This document shows positions 418 to 5,767 of a stretch of 64,000 nucleotides of DNA, one piece after another. This stretch comes from Geomicrobium halophilum (GTDB lineage: Bacteria > Bacillota > Bacilli > Bacillales > Marinococcaceae), in contig NZ_JACHHJ010000005.1 in the NCBI RefSeq assembly GCF_014207655.1, forward strand, positions 158,511 through 222,510, given 5' to 3'. How positions within the stretch are numbered: the first letter of the stretch is position 1; every line of letters begins with the position of its first letter. A model generated the notes under the pieces. The model did no database searches and was not told the DNA's origin. It worked only from the letters and a program-made list of their open reading frames with translations. The position numbers were made by a program, and so were the translations under genes.

Positions 418-626
418 GAATATCTTTGGATTTACCTGTGTCAGGCCGGTCTTTAGCATTAGACTCTCTCTCATTAGGAGTGACGTTACAGGTATCCTGT
501 TATTAATAGTTATTTCTATATGGATCATCCGTCAATTAACGAAAAATATTACTACAATGATGTAAAAAGCCGATACTTTATCAGCTATTTACTGCTTGGT
601 TGTGGTTATGAAGTAAAATTTTTTGT

Positions 627-690
627 TCAGCAAACGAGGCGCTTTAGTGGAATAAGGGGCTGTACCCTTATTGGGCATAAGTGCTACTTA
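627..690 (+). repeat. Cassette-type intergenic repeat, copy 1
   Basis: It contains GGCGCTTTAGTGGAATAA followed by a hairpin, AATAAGGG paired with CCCTTATT across a 6-nt loop, and then a TTGGGCATAA block. Related blocks occur near 3671, 4055, 4577 and 5390. This copy runs almost into the start of the HAD phosphatase gene. Confidence 0.55.
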
Positions 691-704
691 GATTTCTGGA
701 GGAA

Positions 705-1223
705 TTGGCGTTTAAAATTGCATTTTTTGATAGAGATGGCACAATCATTGAGGATTATCCAGATCATGAATGGACAAATGTAAAGCATCCGGTGTTTATA
801 GATGGGTCAATAAATACATTAAAGTATGTTGTAGGAAAAGGATATAAAATCATTATTATCACAAATCAATATATTATTAATGAAGGCTCTATTACGATCG
901 ACCAATACCATGATATTCATAACCAAATGATAAGTATCCTAAAATCTGAAGGTGTAGACATACTTGATGTCTTTTATTGTCCTCACGGAAAATCTGAGGA
1001 TTGTCCATGTATAAAACCTAAAGTAGGAATGATTGAGCAAGCAATCCATAAATACCCTAAAATTAATTTGGATGATTCTTTTATGATTGGAGATTCTTTA
1101 GTTGATGTTGAATTAGCGATGAATATGGGAATTACAGGCTTTGGGATCGGAGTCGGTTCTAATTATACAGAAAGCAATATATATCAGTTGAACGCTACAG
1201 AAGAATTAAACCATTTTATTTAA
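705..1223 (+). CDS. HAD-superfamily phosphatase, histidinol-phosphatase/GmhB-like
   Basis: A cytoplasmic HAD hydrolase of about 172 residues. It has the nucleophile motif FFDRDGT near the N-terminus, motif II ITNQ, and the acidic motif GDSLVDVE near residue 130. Between them is a Cys/His cluster (CPHGKSEDCPC) followed by KPK, like the zinc loop of heptose-1,7-bisphosphate and histidinol-phosphate phosphatases. The family dephosphorylates small sugar or amino-alcohol phosphates; the substrate here is unknown. The start is uncertain: TTG at 705 has a GGAGGA only 1-2 nt away, while GTG at 681 lies inside the upstream repeat. The gene stands alone, so the context gives no pathway. Confidence 0.8.
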   Translation: MAFKIAFFDRDGTIIEDYPDHEWTNVKHPVFIDGSINTLKYVVGKGYKIIIITNQYIINEGSITIDQYHDIHNQMISILKSEGVDILDVFYCPHGKSEDCPCIKPKVGMIEQAIHKYPKINLDDSFMIGDSLVDVELAMNMGITGFGIGVGSNYTESNIYQLNATEELNHFI

Positions 1224-1287
1224 AACTTGGATAAATATATTAACCAACGGAAAGATTGCAGTCCGAAGTAATAAAATATAACCTTAT

Positions 1288-1338
1288 ACCCTATCGGCAT
1301 GTACTTCGTTGTATATTTCGATTGTTGAATAAAGAATG
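1288..1338 (+). repeat. Partial cassette-type repeat after the HAD gene
   Basis: It resembles the right half of the repeat seen near 4095: a CCTTATACCCTATCGG block and then GATTGTTGAATAA about 25 bp later. The left half is not evident. It lies between the HAD gene and the transposase remnant. Confidence 0.35.
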
Positions 1339-1368
1339 AACTTATTTGGCATTCAGGAATGATATGAG

Positions 1369-2009
1369 ATGGAACCTACCCGCCGTTATGACGCGATTAT
1401 TTCCGCGATTGATTTGGATGCGATTTGTCATGTAGGGAACAAAAAATCCCAACTTGGTGCGCCAGAAGAATTAAATTACGCAGCCATGGTATTTCTGTTT
1501 TTATCCGATATGTCGAGCGGATCCCAACGATCAAAGACCTGGTGAAACGCTTCGATGAAGATATTGCTTTCAAGATGAATTGCGGGATTCTCGTTTCCGA
1601 TAACACGCCTTCTGAAGCCTCCTATTCCCGACTATTAACGAAACTGAGCGAATCTACGATCTTAGAAGAAGCCCAAGAAAAAGTCGTTCTTCAAGCGATT
1701 GCGGAAGGTTTCATCATCGATGACACCGTCGCTATCGATGCGACCCATTTCGAAGCACGGGATCAAGCTCCACCTAAAGAAGAAAAGCCAAAGCCAGAAC
1801 CCAAAAAACGCGGACGTAAATCAAACGAAGAACGTGAACAGTGGCTCATCGAACAAGCGGAAAGAGAAACGAATCGGCCCCTATTTGAAAAGAAAATCGA
1901 TGCTCAGTTAGACGTATCCTTCACTGAATTACGCACGGAAGTCCCTCAAGAACCCAAGTGGGGGGTGAAAAAGAACAGTGAAGGAAAGAACGTTCGGGCA
2001 CTGTTCTAA
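1369..2009 (+). pseudogene. Truncated, frameshifted transposase (IS1182-like)
   Basis: An ATG at 1369 opens MEPTRRYDAI and reads to about 1500. The homologous reading then continues in another frame (YVERIPTIKDLVKRF onward), so there is one frameshift near 1497-1512. The second part has the N-terminal DUF772-like domain and a DATHFEARDQAPP stretch followed by a basic KKRGRKS linker, as in IS1182-family DDE transposases. The protein ends at GKNV followed by unrelated residues, so roughly the C-terminal half, with the remaining catalytic acids, is missing. No terminal inverted repeat is visible. It is an insertion-sequence scar that cannot be active. Confidence 0.8.
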
Positions 2010-2044
2010 AACTATTTGAATTGTAGTACAATATATTCATACTA

Positions 2045-2352
2045 AAAAGCGATGAAGAGAAGAGTACATGTAGCTAAGCATTACAGAGAACCCCGTTTGC
2101 TGCGATGGAGGATGTACGGGTACATGGAACCAAACCTTGGAGCTGCACATATGATACCGTTTTTATGACGATTGATGATGTGCCGGTTTCTCCCGTTATA
2201 GAGATAGAGTATATCCTACAGTATACACTGCAGGCGTACTTGAAAAGGTTTTTGTGGTGACACAAGAACAAACTGGGGTGGCACCGCGAACTTCTAAATT
2301 CAAGGAGTCTCGTCCTCAAGTCTAATGACTAGGAGGTGAGATTCTTTTTTGT
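2045..2352 (+). promoter_or_regulatory. T-box leader upstream of the MFS transporter
   Basis: Stem I landmarks are present (GAAGAGTACATGT-like at about 2055-2070, then TTGGAGCTGC near 2138). The hallmark T-box core GGGGTGGCACCGCGAA is at 2275-2290. A terminator hairpin follows at 2305-2346, a TCTCGTCCTC arm pairing with the GGAGGTGAGA region and a run of T. T-boxes sense uncharged tRNA and permit read-through into amino-acid genes. The specifier lies in GGAACCAAACC at about 2127-2137. CCA (Pro), ACC (Thr) and CAA (Gln) are all readable, so I do not assign the amino acid. The MFS gene starts 36 bp downstream. Confidence 0.82.
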
Positions 2353-2387
2353 TGTTTCAAAACATCGAATTTAGGGGTGAGTGAGAT

Positions 2388-3615
2388 TTGAAGCGGTGGA
2401 AAAATCCCTTATTGCTTCTTTTAGGTATTGGTGTATCAAATTTAGGTGCTTGGGTTTATTTAATCTCGCTAAACTTGGTTGTTTTGGATATGACAGGCTC
2501 GCCATTAGCGGTATCGATTCTGTACATCCTTATACCAGTTGCCACTATATGTACTAATTTTTGGTCGGGAAGTTTTATCGATAGATTAAATAAGAGGAAT
2601 CTGATGATTTCCTTAGACTTAATGAGAGCGATATTCATATTTTCGCTTCCATATATGGATTCTCTTATTTTAATTTATGTATTTGTGTTTATCATCAATA
2701 TTGCAAGTTCAATTTTTGAGCCTACATCCATGGTCTACATGACGAAGCTTATACCTAAAGCAAATCGTCAAAGATTTAATGCACTTAGAAATTTCATTAA
2801 TTCAAGTGGTTTTATATTAGGACCTTCAATTGCGGGTTTTCTGTTTATTTTAGGATCCCCGTATTTAGCCATCCAATTAAATGCTCTTGCATTATGTATA
2901 TCAGCCTTAATAATCCTTTTACTTCCGAACTTGGAATTAAGTAGACAAACAGTAATGTCGGAAAAAGTAAACATAAAACTAATAAGAAATGATTGGAAGC
3001 AAATTCTTAGTTTTAGTAAATCAAACCTGCACATTACGTTGGTGTACATTCTCTTTAATGGGATGACTGTATTTATGACTGCTTTAGATTCTTTAGAGGC
3101 AGCATTTGCAACTGAAGTGCTTTCATTATCTGAAAGTGCGTATGGGTTTTTGGTAAGTATTGCGGGAATAGGGATCATAGCTGGTTCGTTAATAAATGCT
3201 TTATTCGTTAAAAACTTAAAACTTAATATATTAATCGGCGTTGGTGCTATATTTACGCCGGTTGGTTATTTGATTTTTGCGTTTTCGCATGACTTTATGT
3301 TTGCATCTATAGGCTTTTTCACTCTAACCTTTGCCCTGTCATTCGCAAACACAGGTTTTTTAACTTTATCAAAATAATGTCCCAGTAAACATTATGGGGA
3401 GGTTTTCGAGTGTTTTAGGTATTTTAGAAGCTGTGCTAATAATTTTACTTACGGCAGTGATTGGGGGTTCAGCTGATCTATTTGAAATTCGTCCAGTTTA
3501 TATCATTGGTTCATTTGCATTTTTGACTTTAGGATTGATGATTAATCTGGTTGTATTTGATAACTCGAAAAGTAAATACTATAGCCAAAAACAAAGTGAA
3601 GGACGTGTTGGATAA
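2388..3615 (+). pseudogene. MFS transporter with a single-base frameshift
   Basis: It starts at TTG 2388 behind GGGGTGAGTGAG and encodes a major facilitator of about 408 residues. The N-terminal 329 residues (ten or so membrane segments; NLVVLDMTGSP, SFIDRLNKR loop) end at TAA 3375. The homologous continuation YQNNVPVNIMGRF is in the +1 frame and runs to 3615. Deleting one base around 3360-3368 restores one reading frame. The T-box in front suggests it once responded to amino-acid starvation, perhaps as an uptake or efflux carrier. It could be a true pseudogene or a sequence error at the TTTTTTAACTTT tract. Confidence 0.78.
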
Positions 3616-3670
3616 AGGTAAGGTTAGACGTCACTTATAATCCTGTATACCAGCTTATATGTGACCTATC

Positions 3671-3740
3671 TTTCTTCCACTAAAGGAGCGCTTTAATGGA
3701 ATAAAGTTGTAGCAGAATAAGGTTATTTATATTCGAGGGG
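3671..3740 (+). repeat. Cassette-type intergenic repeat, copy 2
   Basis: It contains CTAAAGGAGCGCTTTAATGG followed by AATAA, then AGCAGAATAAGG. It ends against the AGGGGGGT ribosome binding site of the 37-codon gene at 3750. Confidence 0.55.
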
Positions 3741-3749
3741 GGTATCTAT

Positions 3750-3863
3750 ATGGATTTTAGTTTAACCTTGTTAGCCTTAAGCATTGCTGCTGCAGGGTAC
3801 TTTATAGGTAATGGGCTTAAAAACTTTAAAAATCCAAATGCAGAAGATAGTCTTAGTGATTAA
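3750..3863 (+). CDS. 37-residue single-pass membrane peptide
   Basis: The ATG at 3750 has a strong AGGGGGGT site 8-9 nt upstream. The peptide has one hydrophobic helix (LTLLALSIAAAGYFIG) followed by GLKNFKNPNAED. Small proteins of this pattern are common in Bacillus but have no assigned role that I know of. Its end overlaps the start of the next, frameshifted gene by 8 nt, which suggests a translationally coupled pair. Confidence 0.65.
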   Translation: MDFSLTLLALSIAAAGYFIGNGLKNFKNPNAEDSLSD

Positions 3864-4043
3864 TGATGATAATGAACACGAATTGATAAAGGAAAAAATG
3901 TTCATTATTTTATGGGAATACCGAAAGAAGATGCAAAAACATTAATTCAGGAATATTCTGACATAAAATACGTTCTTATAAATGATAAGGTGTACTATCC
4001 TAAAGCAAGATTGCACGAATGGTTAAAAGGTTTAGGAGAGTAA
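3856..4043 (+). pseudogene. Small DNA-binding-like protein, frameshifted at an A6 tract
   Basis: From GTG 3856 the frame reads INDDNEHELIKEK up to about 3897. The rest of a coherent protein (VHYFMGIPKEDAKTLIQEY, then DKVYYPKARLHEWLKGLGE) lies in the neighbouring frame to TAA 4041-4043. One extra A in the AAAAAA run at 3893-3898 would join both halves into about 62 residues. The C-terminal half, with YYPKARLHEWL, resembles short helix-turn-helix or excisionase-like proteins; that is an inference. It is coupled to the membrane peptide before it. Confidence 0.6.
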
Positions 4044-4054
4044 CCCCTTGATAG

Positions 4055-4135
4055 CTTACCACAATCGGGCGCAAGAGTTGAATAACTCATTGTGCCTTTA
4101 TCGGGCCAGATTCTTGAACAACGATAGTTATTAAC
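4055..4135 (+). repeat. Cassette-type intergenic repeat, copy 3
   Basis: It reads ATCGGGCGCAAGAGTTGAAT followed by AACTC, then CCTTTATCGGGCCAGATT and CTTGAACAA. The TTGAA and TTGAACAA ends echo copies 4 and 5. It lies between the small DNA-binding-like gene and the VOC gene. Confidence 0.55.
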
Positions 4136-4159
4136 ATAAAGCAGAAAGTTGGTTACTAC

Positions 4160-4564
4160 ATGGAATTTAACGACTTCACAGCAGCTCAAGTTAGAATAGC
4201 TAGGCCGACAGAAAAATTTGAAGAGGTCATTGATTTTTATGTAAGTGGATTAGGACTTAAACAAATACAGCAATTTAAAGGGCATAGAGGGTATGAGGGA
4301 GTTATTATTGGATTACCAGATGTTAATTATCACTTGGAATTCACCCGTCATATTGACGGAAGTCCATGCCTTGCACCTACTAAAGATAATCTGTTAGTTT
4401 TCTATATAACTGATAAAAATGAAATAAATAAAGTATCTGATCGATTACAAAAAATGGGATATGGAGAGGTGGAACCTGAAAATGGATACTGGAAAGAGCA
4501 AGGAATTACCATAGAAGATCCAGATGGCTGGCGAATAGTGTTAATGAATAGATCGTTTGAGTAA
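4160..4564 (+). CDS. VOC (glyoxalase/bleomycin-resistance fold) protein, YycE-like
   Basis: 134 residues forming a two-module VOC fold. The N-terminus VRIARPTEKFEEVIDFY, the central LEFTRHIDG and the C-terminal EDPDGWRIVLMN are the expected metal- or substrate-side strands. The full length matches single-chain VOC proteins, and the opening resembles B. subtilis YycE. VOC proteins isomerise, cleave or bind small molecules and can give drug or electrophile resistance; the substrate is unknown. The RBS before ATG 4160 is weak (AGAAAG about 15 nt upstream). It stands alone between two copies of the cassette repeat. Confidence 0.85.
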   Translation: MEFNDFTAAQVRIARPTEKFEEVIDFYVSGLGLKQIQQFKGHRGYEGVIIGLPDVNYHLEFTRHIDGSPCLAPTKDNLLVFYITDKNEINKVSDRLQKMGYGEVEPENGYWKEQGITIEDPDGWRIVLMNRSFE

Positions 4565-4576
4565 TTTAGGGTCGGA

Positions 4577-4656
4577 ACTTTCTTAGTTCAACTAAAGGGC
4601 GCTTTAATTGAATAAAAGATGTACCATAATCACGCTATATTGTTCAACAAGGGGGT
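4577..4656 (+). repeat. Cassette-type intergenic repeat, copy 4
   Basis: The best-preserved copy. AACTAAAGGGCGCTTTAATT is followed by GAATAA, a spacer and ATATTGTTCAACAAGGGGG. ATTGAATAA and ATTGTTCAAC form an imperfect inverted repeat. The right end supplies the GGGGG ribosome binding site of the following gene. Confidence 0.6.
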
Positions 4657-4661
4657 TTTTG

Positions 4662-4991
4662 ATGGAGGATGAGACGGAACATAATCGGGTAAGTAAGAAG
4701 GTGTTTATTCAGCATGCTATTCTTATCCCTCTTTTTGTTTGTGTCGGCATTTTTTTTCATTCCTTGTTTAGAGATGGGGATCTAAGAAGTCTCGTTGAGA
4801 TAGTTAGCTTTTTTATATTTTTCTCGATAGTTAGCACATTATTTTGGCTTGTATTCCGAAAACGGTTGGTAAAACAAGAGAAGCAGAGAATAGCAAATAA
4901 AGGTTCAGGAAGAAATCTTAAAAATAATGTTTTATATTTTGGAATTATGATTTTAATACTTTTTGTTTTATGGGGGATTATTTCCTTTTAA
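4662..4991 (+). CDS. Membrane protein of 109 residues, unknown function
   Basis: I start it at ATG 4662, 10 nt after AAGGGGG, rather than at an upstream TTG inside the repeat. The N-terminus is charged (MEDETEHNRVSKK). Three hydrophobic segments follow at about residues 17-33, 44-64 and 90-108, with a basic cytoplasmic loop (RKRLVKQEKQR) between the last two. The next gene, a broken membrane protein at 5025, has a similar layout, so the two may be degenerate paralogues or a pair. No family is recognised. Confidence 0.65.
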   Translation: MEDETEHNRVSKKVFIQHAILIPLFVCVGIFFHSLFRDGDLRSLVEIVSFFIFFSIVSTLFWLVFRKRLVKQEKQRIANKGSGRNLKNNVLYFGIMILILFVLWGIISF

Positions 4992-5024
4992 AACGGTCTT
5001 CTGCAAAAAGGGAAGTGGGTACTT

Positions 5025-5348
5025 ATGAGGGAGACTACAAATAAAAAGAACAAACCAATGAAAAAAACACAAAAGCTGATTTATAGCATAATTTGTCCTT
5101 TTATTGTAGGGTTTGTGGTTTAAATTATTAACCTAATTGAAGGTGAACCATTCCGGTTAGAAGTTGCGTTGCCGATTATGATTGGAGTATCAATACCTCA
5201 ATGGATTGGTATATGGTTCCTGCATGATTTTTATTGGAGGAAATCAAACAAAGAAGGAAGTGAAAAAAAGAATCAAGGTTTAAGGTATACAATATTTTGG
5301 CTACTAGCTCTATCTATGGTCTTGTTTATCATTTTGTATTTTAGTTAG
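5025..5348 (+). pseudogene. Membrane protein interrupted by an in-frame stop
   Basis: The ATG at 5025 opens MRETTNKKNKPMKK and a first hydrophobic helix. A TAA at 5121-5123 interrupts it, and the same frame continues coherently through two more hydrophobic segments (PIMIGVSIPQWIGIWFL and IFWLLALSMVLFIIL) to TAG 5346. The reconstructed product has about 107 residues and resembles the preceding membrane protein in size and layout. One nonsense substitution is enough to explain it. Function is unknown. Confidence 0.6.
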
Positions 5349-5389
5349 TTTATTATACAAAAATACTGATGTGATGGAGATCTGAGTTG

Positions 5390-5455
5390 TAAAGCAAACG
5401 AGCTTAATTGAACAAGTTCGTCCTTCTGCATAAGGCCAGATTGTTGCATAAACCC
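5390..5455 (+). repeat. Cassette-type intergenic repeat, copy 5
   Basis: It reads AAACGAGCTTAATTGAACAA, then GCATAAGGCCAGATTGTTGC followed by ATAA. It matches the CGGGCCAGATT and TTGAACAA blocks of copies 3 and 4. It lies between the interrupted membrane gene and the GNAT stub. Confidence 0.55.
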
Positions 5456-5531
5456 TAAAGTTTTTGCTTATGATGAAAAATTTTACAATGTATGCTTTTC
5501 TTAAAAATGAGAAACGAAATTAGGAGTTATT

Positions 5532-5639
5532 ATGGTGATACAGGGAAGCTTTGTGTACATAAGACCTATCGAAGATGAAGATATGGAAACTCTTCATCAA
5601 TTAATTTATCACAAATTTCGTATGCAATGGATGGATTAA
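5532..5639 (+). pseudogene. N-terminal stub of a GNAT acetyltransferase
   Basis: 35 residues from ATG 5532, with TAGGAG about 10 nt upstream. The peptide GSFVYIRPIEDEDMETLHQL is the typical first strand and helix of GNAT N-acetyltransferases, which normally exceed 150 residues. The acetyl-CoA binding core is absent, and the sequence beyond 5640 belongs to a different intergenic repeat. It is probably a truncated remnant. Confidence 0.55.
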
Positions 5640-5767
5640 TGTAAAAAGTAAAGAACTATTTTTTGATTAATCCGCATGTTTGAACGGAACAATGAGGTTT
5701 CACGGCTCCAACGGTAAAGAACTTTATTTTCACTTAACACTTCACGGCTTACGTTTTCATGCGGGTG

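Follow-up and report, generated by a model that had tools for sequence, protein, structure and literature searches.

The closest described counterparts of the locus considered here are small recombination sites that border mobile genes. In Acinetobacter, the passages of the literature that deal with pdif modules describe 28-bp sites of 11-6-11 form, which lie in rows of modules carrying accessory and toxin-antitoxin genes and take part in exchange between replicons (PMC12907356). For Firmicutes, the relevant part of the IntegronFinder 2.0 study lists one complete integron, in Limnochorda pilosa, together with a few CALIN, that is, attC clusters without an integrase (PMC9024848). An 11-6-11 (or 11-7-11) geometry is that of dif sites, as set out in the portion of PMC5357621 that covers them. 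Here, we analyze a stretch of 64,000 nucleotides from Geomicrobium halophilum (contig NZ_JACHHJ010000005.1, positions 158,511 to 222,510; hereafter, the window), near the start of which a recurring element separates single small genes of one orientation. A sequence-only reading had described this element as five copies and one partial copy of a 60-80 bp repeat and had likened the region to a cassette array. Our analysis suggests, with a probability of a little over three in four, that the array consists of gene cassettes at dif-like sites on which a tyrosine recombinase acts, probably a XerA-like enzyme of about 280 amino acids (aa).

A base-by-base check of the window copies gave a 28-bp dif-like site as the building block: an 11-bp arm, a core of 6-7 bp and a second 11-bp arm, following the plan TTC-NNNWAW, core, WTNNNN-GAA. 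The arms are inverted half-sites with one common vocabulary. In its full form the repeat element is two such sites in tandem, A then B, and not a single 60-80 bp repeat; copies 3 and 4 are A and B sites in tandem, and copies 1, 2 and 5 are an A site followed by a decayed B recognized by eye. Type A cores are of the GGGCGC or GAGGCGC kind and type B cores of the GGGCCA kind. Among 218 sites with a clear TTC and GAA, the inner length between the two is 20 in 137 and 21 in 43. Neighboring sites of the same orientation less than 160 bp apart (n = 49) are spaced by 34-36 bp in 12 cases, by 41-46 bp in 28 and by more in nine, and a strict GCGC-type core is followed by a GGCC-type core in 22 of 40 close same-strand pairs, orientation calls being uncertain where the core is nearly symmetric. 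The close same-strand spacing is bimodal, its two peaks differing by roughly one turn of the helix. The two spacings would fit an arrangement in which both sites face the same side of the DNA.

The search profile for the site was built from 17 loci, the window among them, which come mostly from the bacterial family studied here, and it misses other site versions. Over the whole window it gave six matches scoring above 17, all between 640 and 4633 (core centers 640, 3687, 4068, 4104, 4598 and 4633), against a mean of 0.26 and a maximum of 2 in 100 first-order Markov random windows, so the recurring copies are real. The A cores lie at 640, 3687, 4068, 4598 and, in decayed form, ~5404; the B cores lie at 4104, 4633 and, again decayed, 5434. 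When 104 array and recombinase loci were searched (1.795 Mb), the profile found 609 sites, compared with 3 in reversed sequence. Its performance was similar on the 80 loci fetched by enzyme and lying outside the training set (L140-L219), with 452 sites in 1.326 Mb versus 3 reversed. A blind control of 20 regions on a 500-kb grid in four site-rich genomes held 3 sites in 398,020 bp. Because the array loci are rich in sites and the blind regions nearly empty, the sites are clustered rather than evenly spread. These blind regions replaced 11 'array-free' loci (0 sites in 218,911 bp), which were dropped as a control as they had been chosen after showing no sites. At the loose threshold of E <= 1, 289 of 299 genomes contain at least one site match; the counts for whole genomes level off at about 23-24 matches. 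A scan of viral contigs for an exact 22-base motif returned no match.

If recombination occurs in the core, left and right half-sites are expected to be reshuffled. Half-sites do mix: matching 5-mers beside TTC and GAA were seen in 10 of the 218 sites, where shuffling gives 6.4 +/- 2.3. To follow segment ends, we aligned the 104 loci pairwise, counting both directions, and kept segments of at least 150 bp and at least 70% identity; the end-enrichment test leaves out matches to recombinase genes, which otherwise swamp it, and only near-duplicate locus pairs were dropped. The 651 aligned segments have 1190 internal ends. Within 20 bp of a core lie 131 of these (11.0%), compared with 1.8% at positions shifted by 60-500 bp, and 88 (7.4%) lie within 10 bp, compared with 1.0% for the shifted control; that is, homologous segments stop at cores six to seven times as often as at shifted positions. 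For 32 junction comparisons, preselected so that each of the two sequences had a site no more than 30 bp away and identity was at least 80%, and including a few that share a locus or event, a gapped change-point estimate placed 16 junctions within 6 bp of the core center and 20 within 9 bp. If junctions were spread evenly over +/-30 bp, about 7 would be expected within 6 bp (p = 3e-4). We took the gapped estimate instead of an ungapped break-point estimate (10/32 within 6 bp), which displaced junctions with indels.

Several of the shared segments join different genera. A 456-bp segment whose two ends both lie at cores is 95.4% identical between our genome and genome G016, from a different genus, and G022 matches Sutcliffiella rhizosphaerae at 98.5% over 617 bp with a core at one end. 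Rossellomorea vietnamensis and Neobacillus niacini share 2986 bp at 98.9%, the ends lying 2 bp and within 26 bp of core centers, and locus L167 contains a 593-bp duplication within one contig. The sequence-only reading had proposed comparing strains for the gain or loss of single units, and such differences were found around the window array itself. The VOC unit (window 4105-4594) is 88.6% identical to its counterpart in G026, another genus; the similarity begins in the core of site 3B and stops in that of site 4A. In G009, the VOC gene adjoins the 3' end of the MFS gene, so that the order is kept and the two-peptide unit found between them in the window is missing. The second small membrane unit matches G003 at 90% over 404 bp (L100 4094-3694), the match stopping at the core of site 5, and this unit and the last short one (75%), neighbors in the window, are ~3.2 kb apart in G003. 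Site 5 A is a hybrid, its left half corresponding to one G003 site and its right half to another. A and B each serve as the junction in different comparisons, and the units are bounded by sites at both ends; the earlier suggestion that genes move together with a 5' leader was therefore half right.

In other Bacillaceae too, the sites lie between single small genes, as expected for a cassette array. We chose 84 intervals between same-strand neighbor sites 220-1600 bp apart, a choice that is uninformative on the frequency of inverted neighbors. Their median spacing is 746 bp and their median open reading frame (ORF) 126 aa, and in 74 the longest ORF is on the strand of the sites. A Pfam scan of the cargo took 69 of these 74 ORFs; the enzyme itself accounts for two of the remaining five. 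Among the families listed (25 of 67) are GNAT acetyltransferases (3), methyltransferases (3), histidine phosphatases (2), HAD phosphatases (2), PemK-like toxins (2) and several families of unknown function. Two outcomes had been named as speaking against a cassette array, namely the element occurring mainly without accessory genes and one gene order being present everywhere; both were checked, and the data came out against each.

A survey of the tyrosine recombinases in 14 genomes, and of the sites surrounding them, led to a 280-aa protein of G012 (P0001). Relatives at E <= 1e-60 are present in 63 of 299 genomes of the order, a count that includes fragments and four genomes (G015, G161, G235 and G253) with only a 39-46% relative. 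Among the best 80 of 308 enzyme-like stretches, which the named-genome scan kept, the hosts are Neobacillus, Lysinibacillus, Fictibacillus, Rossellomorea, Peribacillus, Sporosarcina, Pontibacillus, Halobacillus and others; the three genera looked up, Lysinibacillus, Neobacillus and Alteribacillus, are Bacillaceae. We examined 49 enzyme loci of at least 72% identity for sites 105-235 bp 5' of the start and 10-150 bp 3' of the stop. A site is found upstream in 26, downstream in 18 and on either side in 32, whereas 3.5% of random windows, similar in size and drawn from these loci, contain one. The upstream sites lie 156-174 bp from the enzyme start in 20 of 26 loci, and the downstream sites mostly 48-135 bp past the stop. 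For a second enzyme clade (29 loci, 64-71% identity), a lower threshold revealed a somewhat different site version, placed 84-90 bp upstream of the gene in 13 loci, of which two are near-duplicates; random windows gave a mean of 0.08 and a maximum of one in that band. That each clade has its own site version and distance suggests cognate pairs.

Residues R138, K162, H229, R232, H255 and Y264 are invariant in 19 of 19 aligned proteins, and we take these to be the catalytic R, K, H, R, H and Y of tyrosine recombinases. The nearest curated family is XerA-like, with the proteins scattered around its cut-off: against the XerA-type model NF040815 (cut-off 220), two of six proteins scored 221 and 222 bits and four scored 210.9-217.7. 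Among solved structures, archaeal Xer/XerA and XerD come closest in sequence and fold, XerA being the nearest fold, and the enzyme fold was predicted with a mean pLDDT of 80.9. Enzyme-positive genomes are more frequent among the 57 site-rich ones (at least 15 profile matches) than among the others (23/57 versus 40/242; Fisher p = 1.6e-4), as are full-length, stop-free copies of at least 58% identity (18/57 versus 29/242; p = 6e-4; lists read by hand). Relatives occur in 9 of 72,556 plasmid records (E <= 1e-60; 59.7-64.6% identity) and in 5 of 50,697 phage records (E <= 1e-40; 34-36% identity). We consider that the cognate enzyme is probably this ~280-aa XerA-like recombinase of other Bacillaceae, which is often framed by sites.

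Other recombinases were considered and set aside. Phage-type integrases that lie near sites in loci L084 and L087 were rejected because, in the broader survey, the sites go with the 280-aa family. In these two loci, from two genera, a site with similar flanks (L084 8430-8470; L087 9528/9572) lies near the integrase, which is 97% identical between them; the arrangement is a tandem in G016, and the L084 site adjoins a csoR-like gene named by eye. This site may be an old attachment point. Rows of adjacent tyrosine recombinases, three in G026 (L090 8832-12047) and four in G013 (C58:9802-13092), were set aside as the agent and were not traced over many loci. The G026 row, which we presume to be RIT-like, sits a few kb from duplicated A-B sites. 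The distant 44-48% relatives in L098 and L103 have no site above threshold around them.

Based on these comparisons, we propose that the 28-bp dif-like sites are the recombination sites of a tyrosine recombinase. The XerA-like enzyme would bind both arms, pair two sites and exchange strands in the core, and such a crossover would yield a site whose left half-site comes from one partner and whose right half-site comes from the other. A crossover in the core would therefore allow a gene to be excised or inserted as a unit bounded by two cores, with free circles forming on the way. The A-B tandem at many inter-gene junctions would offer either site as a junction, and the pairing may have a function. 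At the level of sequence, the comparisons demonstrate defined sites, reshuffled half-sites, core junctions, single-unit differences, linkage of enzyme and site, and a conserved catalytic set. From these we infer recombination, and the units would be integron-like cassettes of a separate type: small accessory genes of Bacillus-like bacteria swapped between genera at 28-bp sites, apparently of another kind than in integrons and used by a different, XerA-like enzyme.

A number of observations weigh against this proposal. Of the 1190 alignment ends, the majority (1059) lie farther than 20 bp from any site, and 12 of the 32 junctions are more than 9 bp from the core center. The MFS-VOC joint of G009 and, for the VOC unit in G026, the site on its right are too decayed to be seen by the profile. 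At the threshold used, 17 of the 49 enzyme loci have no site on either flank. Among the 57 site-rich genomes, 34 are without an enzyme match at E <= 1e-60, our own included, and some of the 23 that are positive hold fragments only. Conversely, six genomes of genus g32 (G124, G152, G178, G202, G293 and G313) encode the enzyme at 82-86% identity with just 0-4 profile sites; their sites may differ in sequence from the profile. The predicted fold has a pTM of 0.56.

The site-rich genomes that lack an enzyme match are also an argument for a different agent. Host XerC/XerD homologues (CodV/RipX) could move the units at dif-like sites, as for the pdif modules of Acinetobacter, leaving the XerA-like gene as a passenger. 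The 11-6-11 geometry, as given in the parts of the two papers that describe it (PMC5357621, PMC12907356), would suit such enzymes, and all 14 genomes surveyed, our own among them, have two strong integrase-family matches in frames of ~300-360 aa that are presumably XerC and XerD. We nevertheless regard this explanation as unlikely, given that sites flank the dedicated enzyme far more often than random windows contain one, that the enzyme is enriched in site-rich genomes, and that the site version of the second clade differs and lies at a distance of its own, suggesting cognate pairs. The single half-site vocabulary of both arms is also what would be expected for one enzyme.

Two further explanations leave Xer enzymes aside. 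The sites might be ordinary intergenic repeats (a regulatory leader, or REP- or MITE-like elements), with the shared segments arising by homologous recombination between repeats. Their wide distribution at the loose threshold and the way in which a B site can abut a ribosome-binding site (RBS) would fit. Against this, half of the near-site junctions fall within 6 bp of the core center with a half-site swap, instead of being spread over the repeat; single units are exchanged between genera at 95-99% identity; and arms so short and variable would not be expected to drive homologous recombination. This makes the repeat explanation improbable in our view. Least probable of all is a true integron or CALIN of the IntI/attC kind. 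It would account for the mostly single-ORF array, the ~60-80 bp composite junctions and a remote or lost integrase, and the IntegronFinder 2.0 study, in the part concerned, places a few CALIN in several Firmicutes genera (PMC9024848). However, P0001 scores 100 bits against TIGR02249 (IntI; cut-off 265) and 60.5 against PRK15417 (cut-off 435), with five other enzyme proteins likewise far below the IntI cut-offs. The complementarity of A and B arms, out of 9 positions, is not above that of shuffled controls in 40 pairs (5.90 versus 5.93 +/- 0.17 and 5.45 versus 5.36 +/- 0.15), and we therefore see no sign of a folded site of the attC type.

The features of the array are collected in Table 1. The fifth copy of the element is real, though decayed, and the partial copy is the half-site beside the transposase. 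The remnant of the DUF772 insertion sequence (IS) was probably a later insertion into the array. The HAD gene has two relatives (67%) within one locus of Pontibacillus marinus (L162), a species that also encodes the enzyme in full length and has duplicated units. An MFS transporter was correctly recognized, and it is not a single intact gene; it has a 95% match in G026 and a 95-97% match in two pieces in G009. Between 2270 and 2340, 5' of this gene, lies a motif that we take to be T-box-like (TGGGGTGGCACCGCG), for which Rfam at the gathering threshold makes no call; at that threshold, Rfam finds one tRNA in the window and nothing else. The peptide unit has 68-69% relatives in another array of our genome (L007) and in G016 (L067), and relatives of the VOC gene are present in G026, G009, G004 and G024. 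The two small membrane proteins stand as units, the second with an internal stop that its G003 homologue of 116 aa does not share. The label of 'GNAT stub' for the last ORF found no backing in a Pfam match. One weak site-like match (threshold 12) lies at window 42545, distant from the array.

Table 1. Sites, genes and remnants of the array, in window coordinates.
Feature	Position	Strand	Evidence and remarks
Site 1, type A (core GAGGCGC)	625..653	+	Profile score 31.8
Decayed B after site 1	~661-691	+	By eye only; profile gives no score
Cassette gene, HAD / PNK3P-like phosphatase	705..1223	+	Pfam PNK3P E=1.9e-11; start predicted
Half-site GATTGTTGAATAA, left part missing	~1319..1333	+	Sequence; adjoins transposase remnant
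IS remnant, DUF772 transposase	1335..1993	+	Pfam DUF772 E=1.6e-7; 73-75% relatives in G019, G006, G008
Cassette gene, MFS transporter	2388..3615	+	Split over two frames, 2388-3377 and 3394-3615; Pfam MFS_1 E=7.6e-24
Site 2, type A (core GGAGCGC)	3674..3702	+	Profile score 33.2
Decayed B after site 2	~3709-3735	+	By eye only; profile gives no score
Peptide cassette, two small ORFs	3750..4043	+	3750-3863 membrane peptide; 3912-4043
Site 3 A (core CGGGCGC)	4055..4083	+	Profile score 18.6
Site 3 B (core CGGGCCA)	4091..4118	+	Profile score 24.5; 36 bp from A; 5' junction of VOC cassette
Cassette gene, VOC protein (YycE-like)	4160..4564	+	Pfam YycE-like_C E=1.9e-31
Site 4 A (core AGGGCGC)	4586..4613	+	Profile score 29.1; 3' junction of VOC cassette
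Site 4 B (core CACGCTA, altered right arm)	4621..4648	+	Profile score 17.5; 35 bp from A; near RBS of next gene
Cassette gene, small membrane protein	4662..4991	+	Open frame; Pfam weak, DUF2921 below cut-off
Cassette, second small membrane protein gene	5002..5401	+	Internal stop; no recognizable site to its left in window
Site 5 A, decayed	5389..5413	+	Hybrid by junction alignments; profile score 9
Site 5 B, decayed GGCCAGATTGTTGCATAA	5421..5450	+	Profile score 12
Short ORF, last array unit	5532..5639	+	75% to G003 C14:295-484, 77% to G003 C17:70091-70240

The array extends beyond what the window displays. Its extent had been given as 600-5640; the 3' part of this holds, the last recognizable site being at window 5434, and the true start is ~9.4 kb before the window. 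Profile matches run from G000:C5:149082, the first, to 163126, so that the window covers the 3' part of a cluster at C5:149-163 kb. A whole-genome search at E <= 0.01 in the assembly of 11 contigs gave 18 matches, clustered on contigs 2, 3, 4 and 5, with none on the largest, contig 1. No integrase had been seen nearby, and this is correct for the window; a search of our genome for P0001 relatives found no intact copy. Remnants do exist in another array of the same genome (C3:74014-74534, 74-75% identity with one stop), with a weaker fragment at C4:371051, and relatives carry full-length, site-flanked copies. Because its MFS gene is split, a small gene is interrupted, the last unit is a stub and the enzyme survives only as remnants, the window array looks like a relic; it is probably that, or else served in trans.

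Among the papers listed by our searches of the open-licence literature in PubMed Central, we found no account of such a Bacillaceae system, subscription papers and preprints being outside the scope of the search. Integrons are described as very rare in Firmicutes in the part of the IntegronFinder 2.0 study cited above (PMC9024848), and a cassette system there would give Bacillus-like bacteria a route for the exchange of single accessory genes, such as acetyltransferases, methyltransferases, phosphatases, PemK-like toxins and unknown proteins. It would offer a simple test object, with one recombinase, defined 28-bp sites and no need for a folded single strand, would help to name 'tyrosine-type recombinase' genes of unassigned role, and could yield a cassette-insertion tool for Gram-positive bacteria. 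We lean towards a broader view, that Bacillaceae harbor a third, independent bacterial cassette system, in which a dedicated single Xer-type recombinase, itself a mobile cassette, would act on double-stranded lox/dif-like sites and shuffle hundreds of accessory genes across genera. Such a system would have been overlooked because integron tools seek IntI and folded attC sites.

Set beside known systems, the Bacillaceae arrays resemble the pdif modules of Acinetobacter in their flanking 28-bp, 11-6-11 sites, in their rows of units that include accessory and toxin-antitoxin genes and in exchange from one replicon to another. Whereas pdif modules depend on the host XerC/XerD and have C/D and D/C sites, these arrays have a linked, dedicated XerA-like gene, one arm vocabulary and frequent A-B pairs, and because the dedicated recombinase is linked to the sites they are not plainly pdif. 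With integrons and CALIN they share mostly single-gene units, a composite junction of ~60-80 bp, breakpoints in the core and arrays left without an integrase, and, as in integrons, each cassette has one gene and one site in one orientation (74 of the 84 chosen intervals). They differ from integrons in that the enzyme is not IntI, the junction halves are not complementary and the recombinase gene can sit between two sites. With regard to an integron-type platform at one end (intI with attI and Pc), 26 of the 49 enzyme loci have an upstream site and 18 a downstream one. XerA/dif, XerS/difSL and XerH/difH, as the source describes them where it treats single-recombinase systems (PMC5357621), likewise rely on one short recombinase, with an 11-6-11 site in the case of XerA and the gene beside its site in the case of XerS. 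Those systems resolve chromosome dimers at a chromosomal dif, whereas the Bacillaceae sites often number at least 20 per genome and lie between accessory genes.

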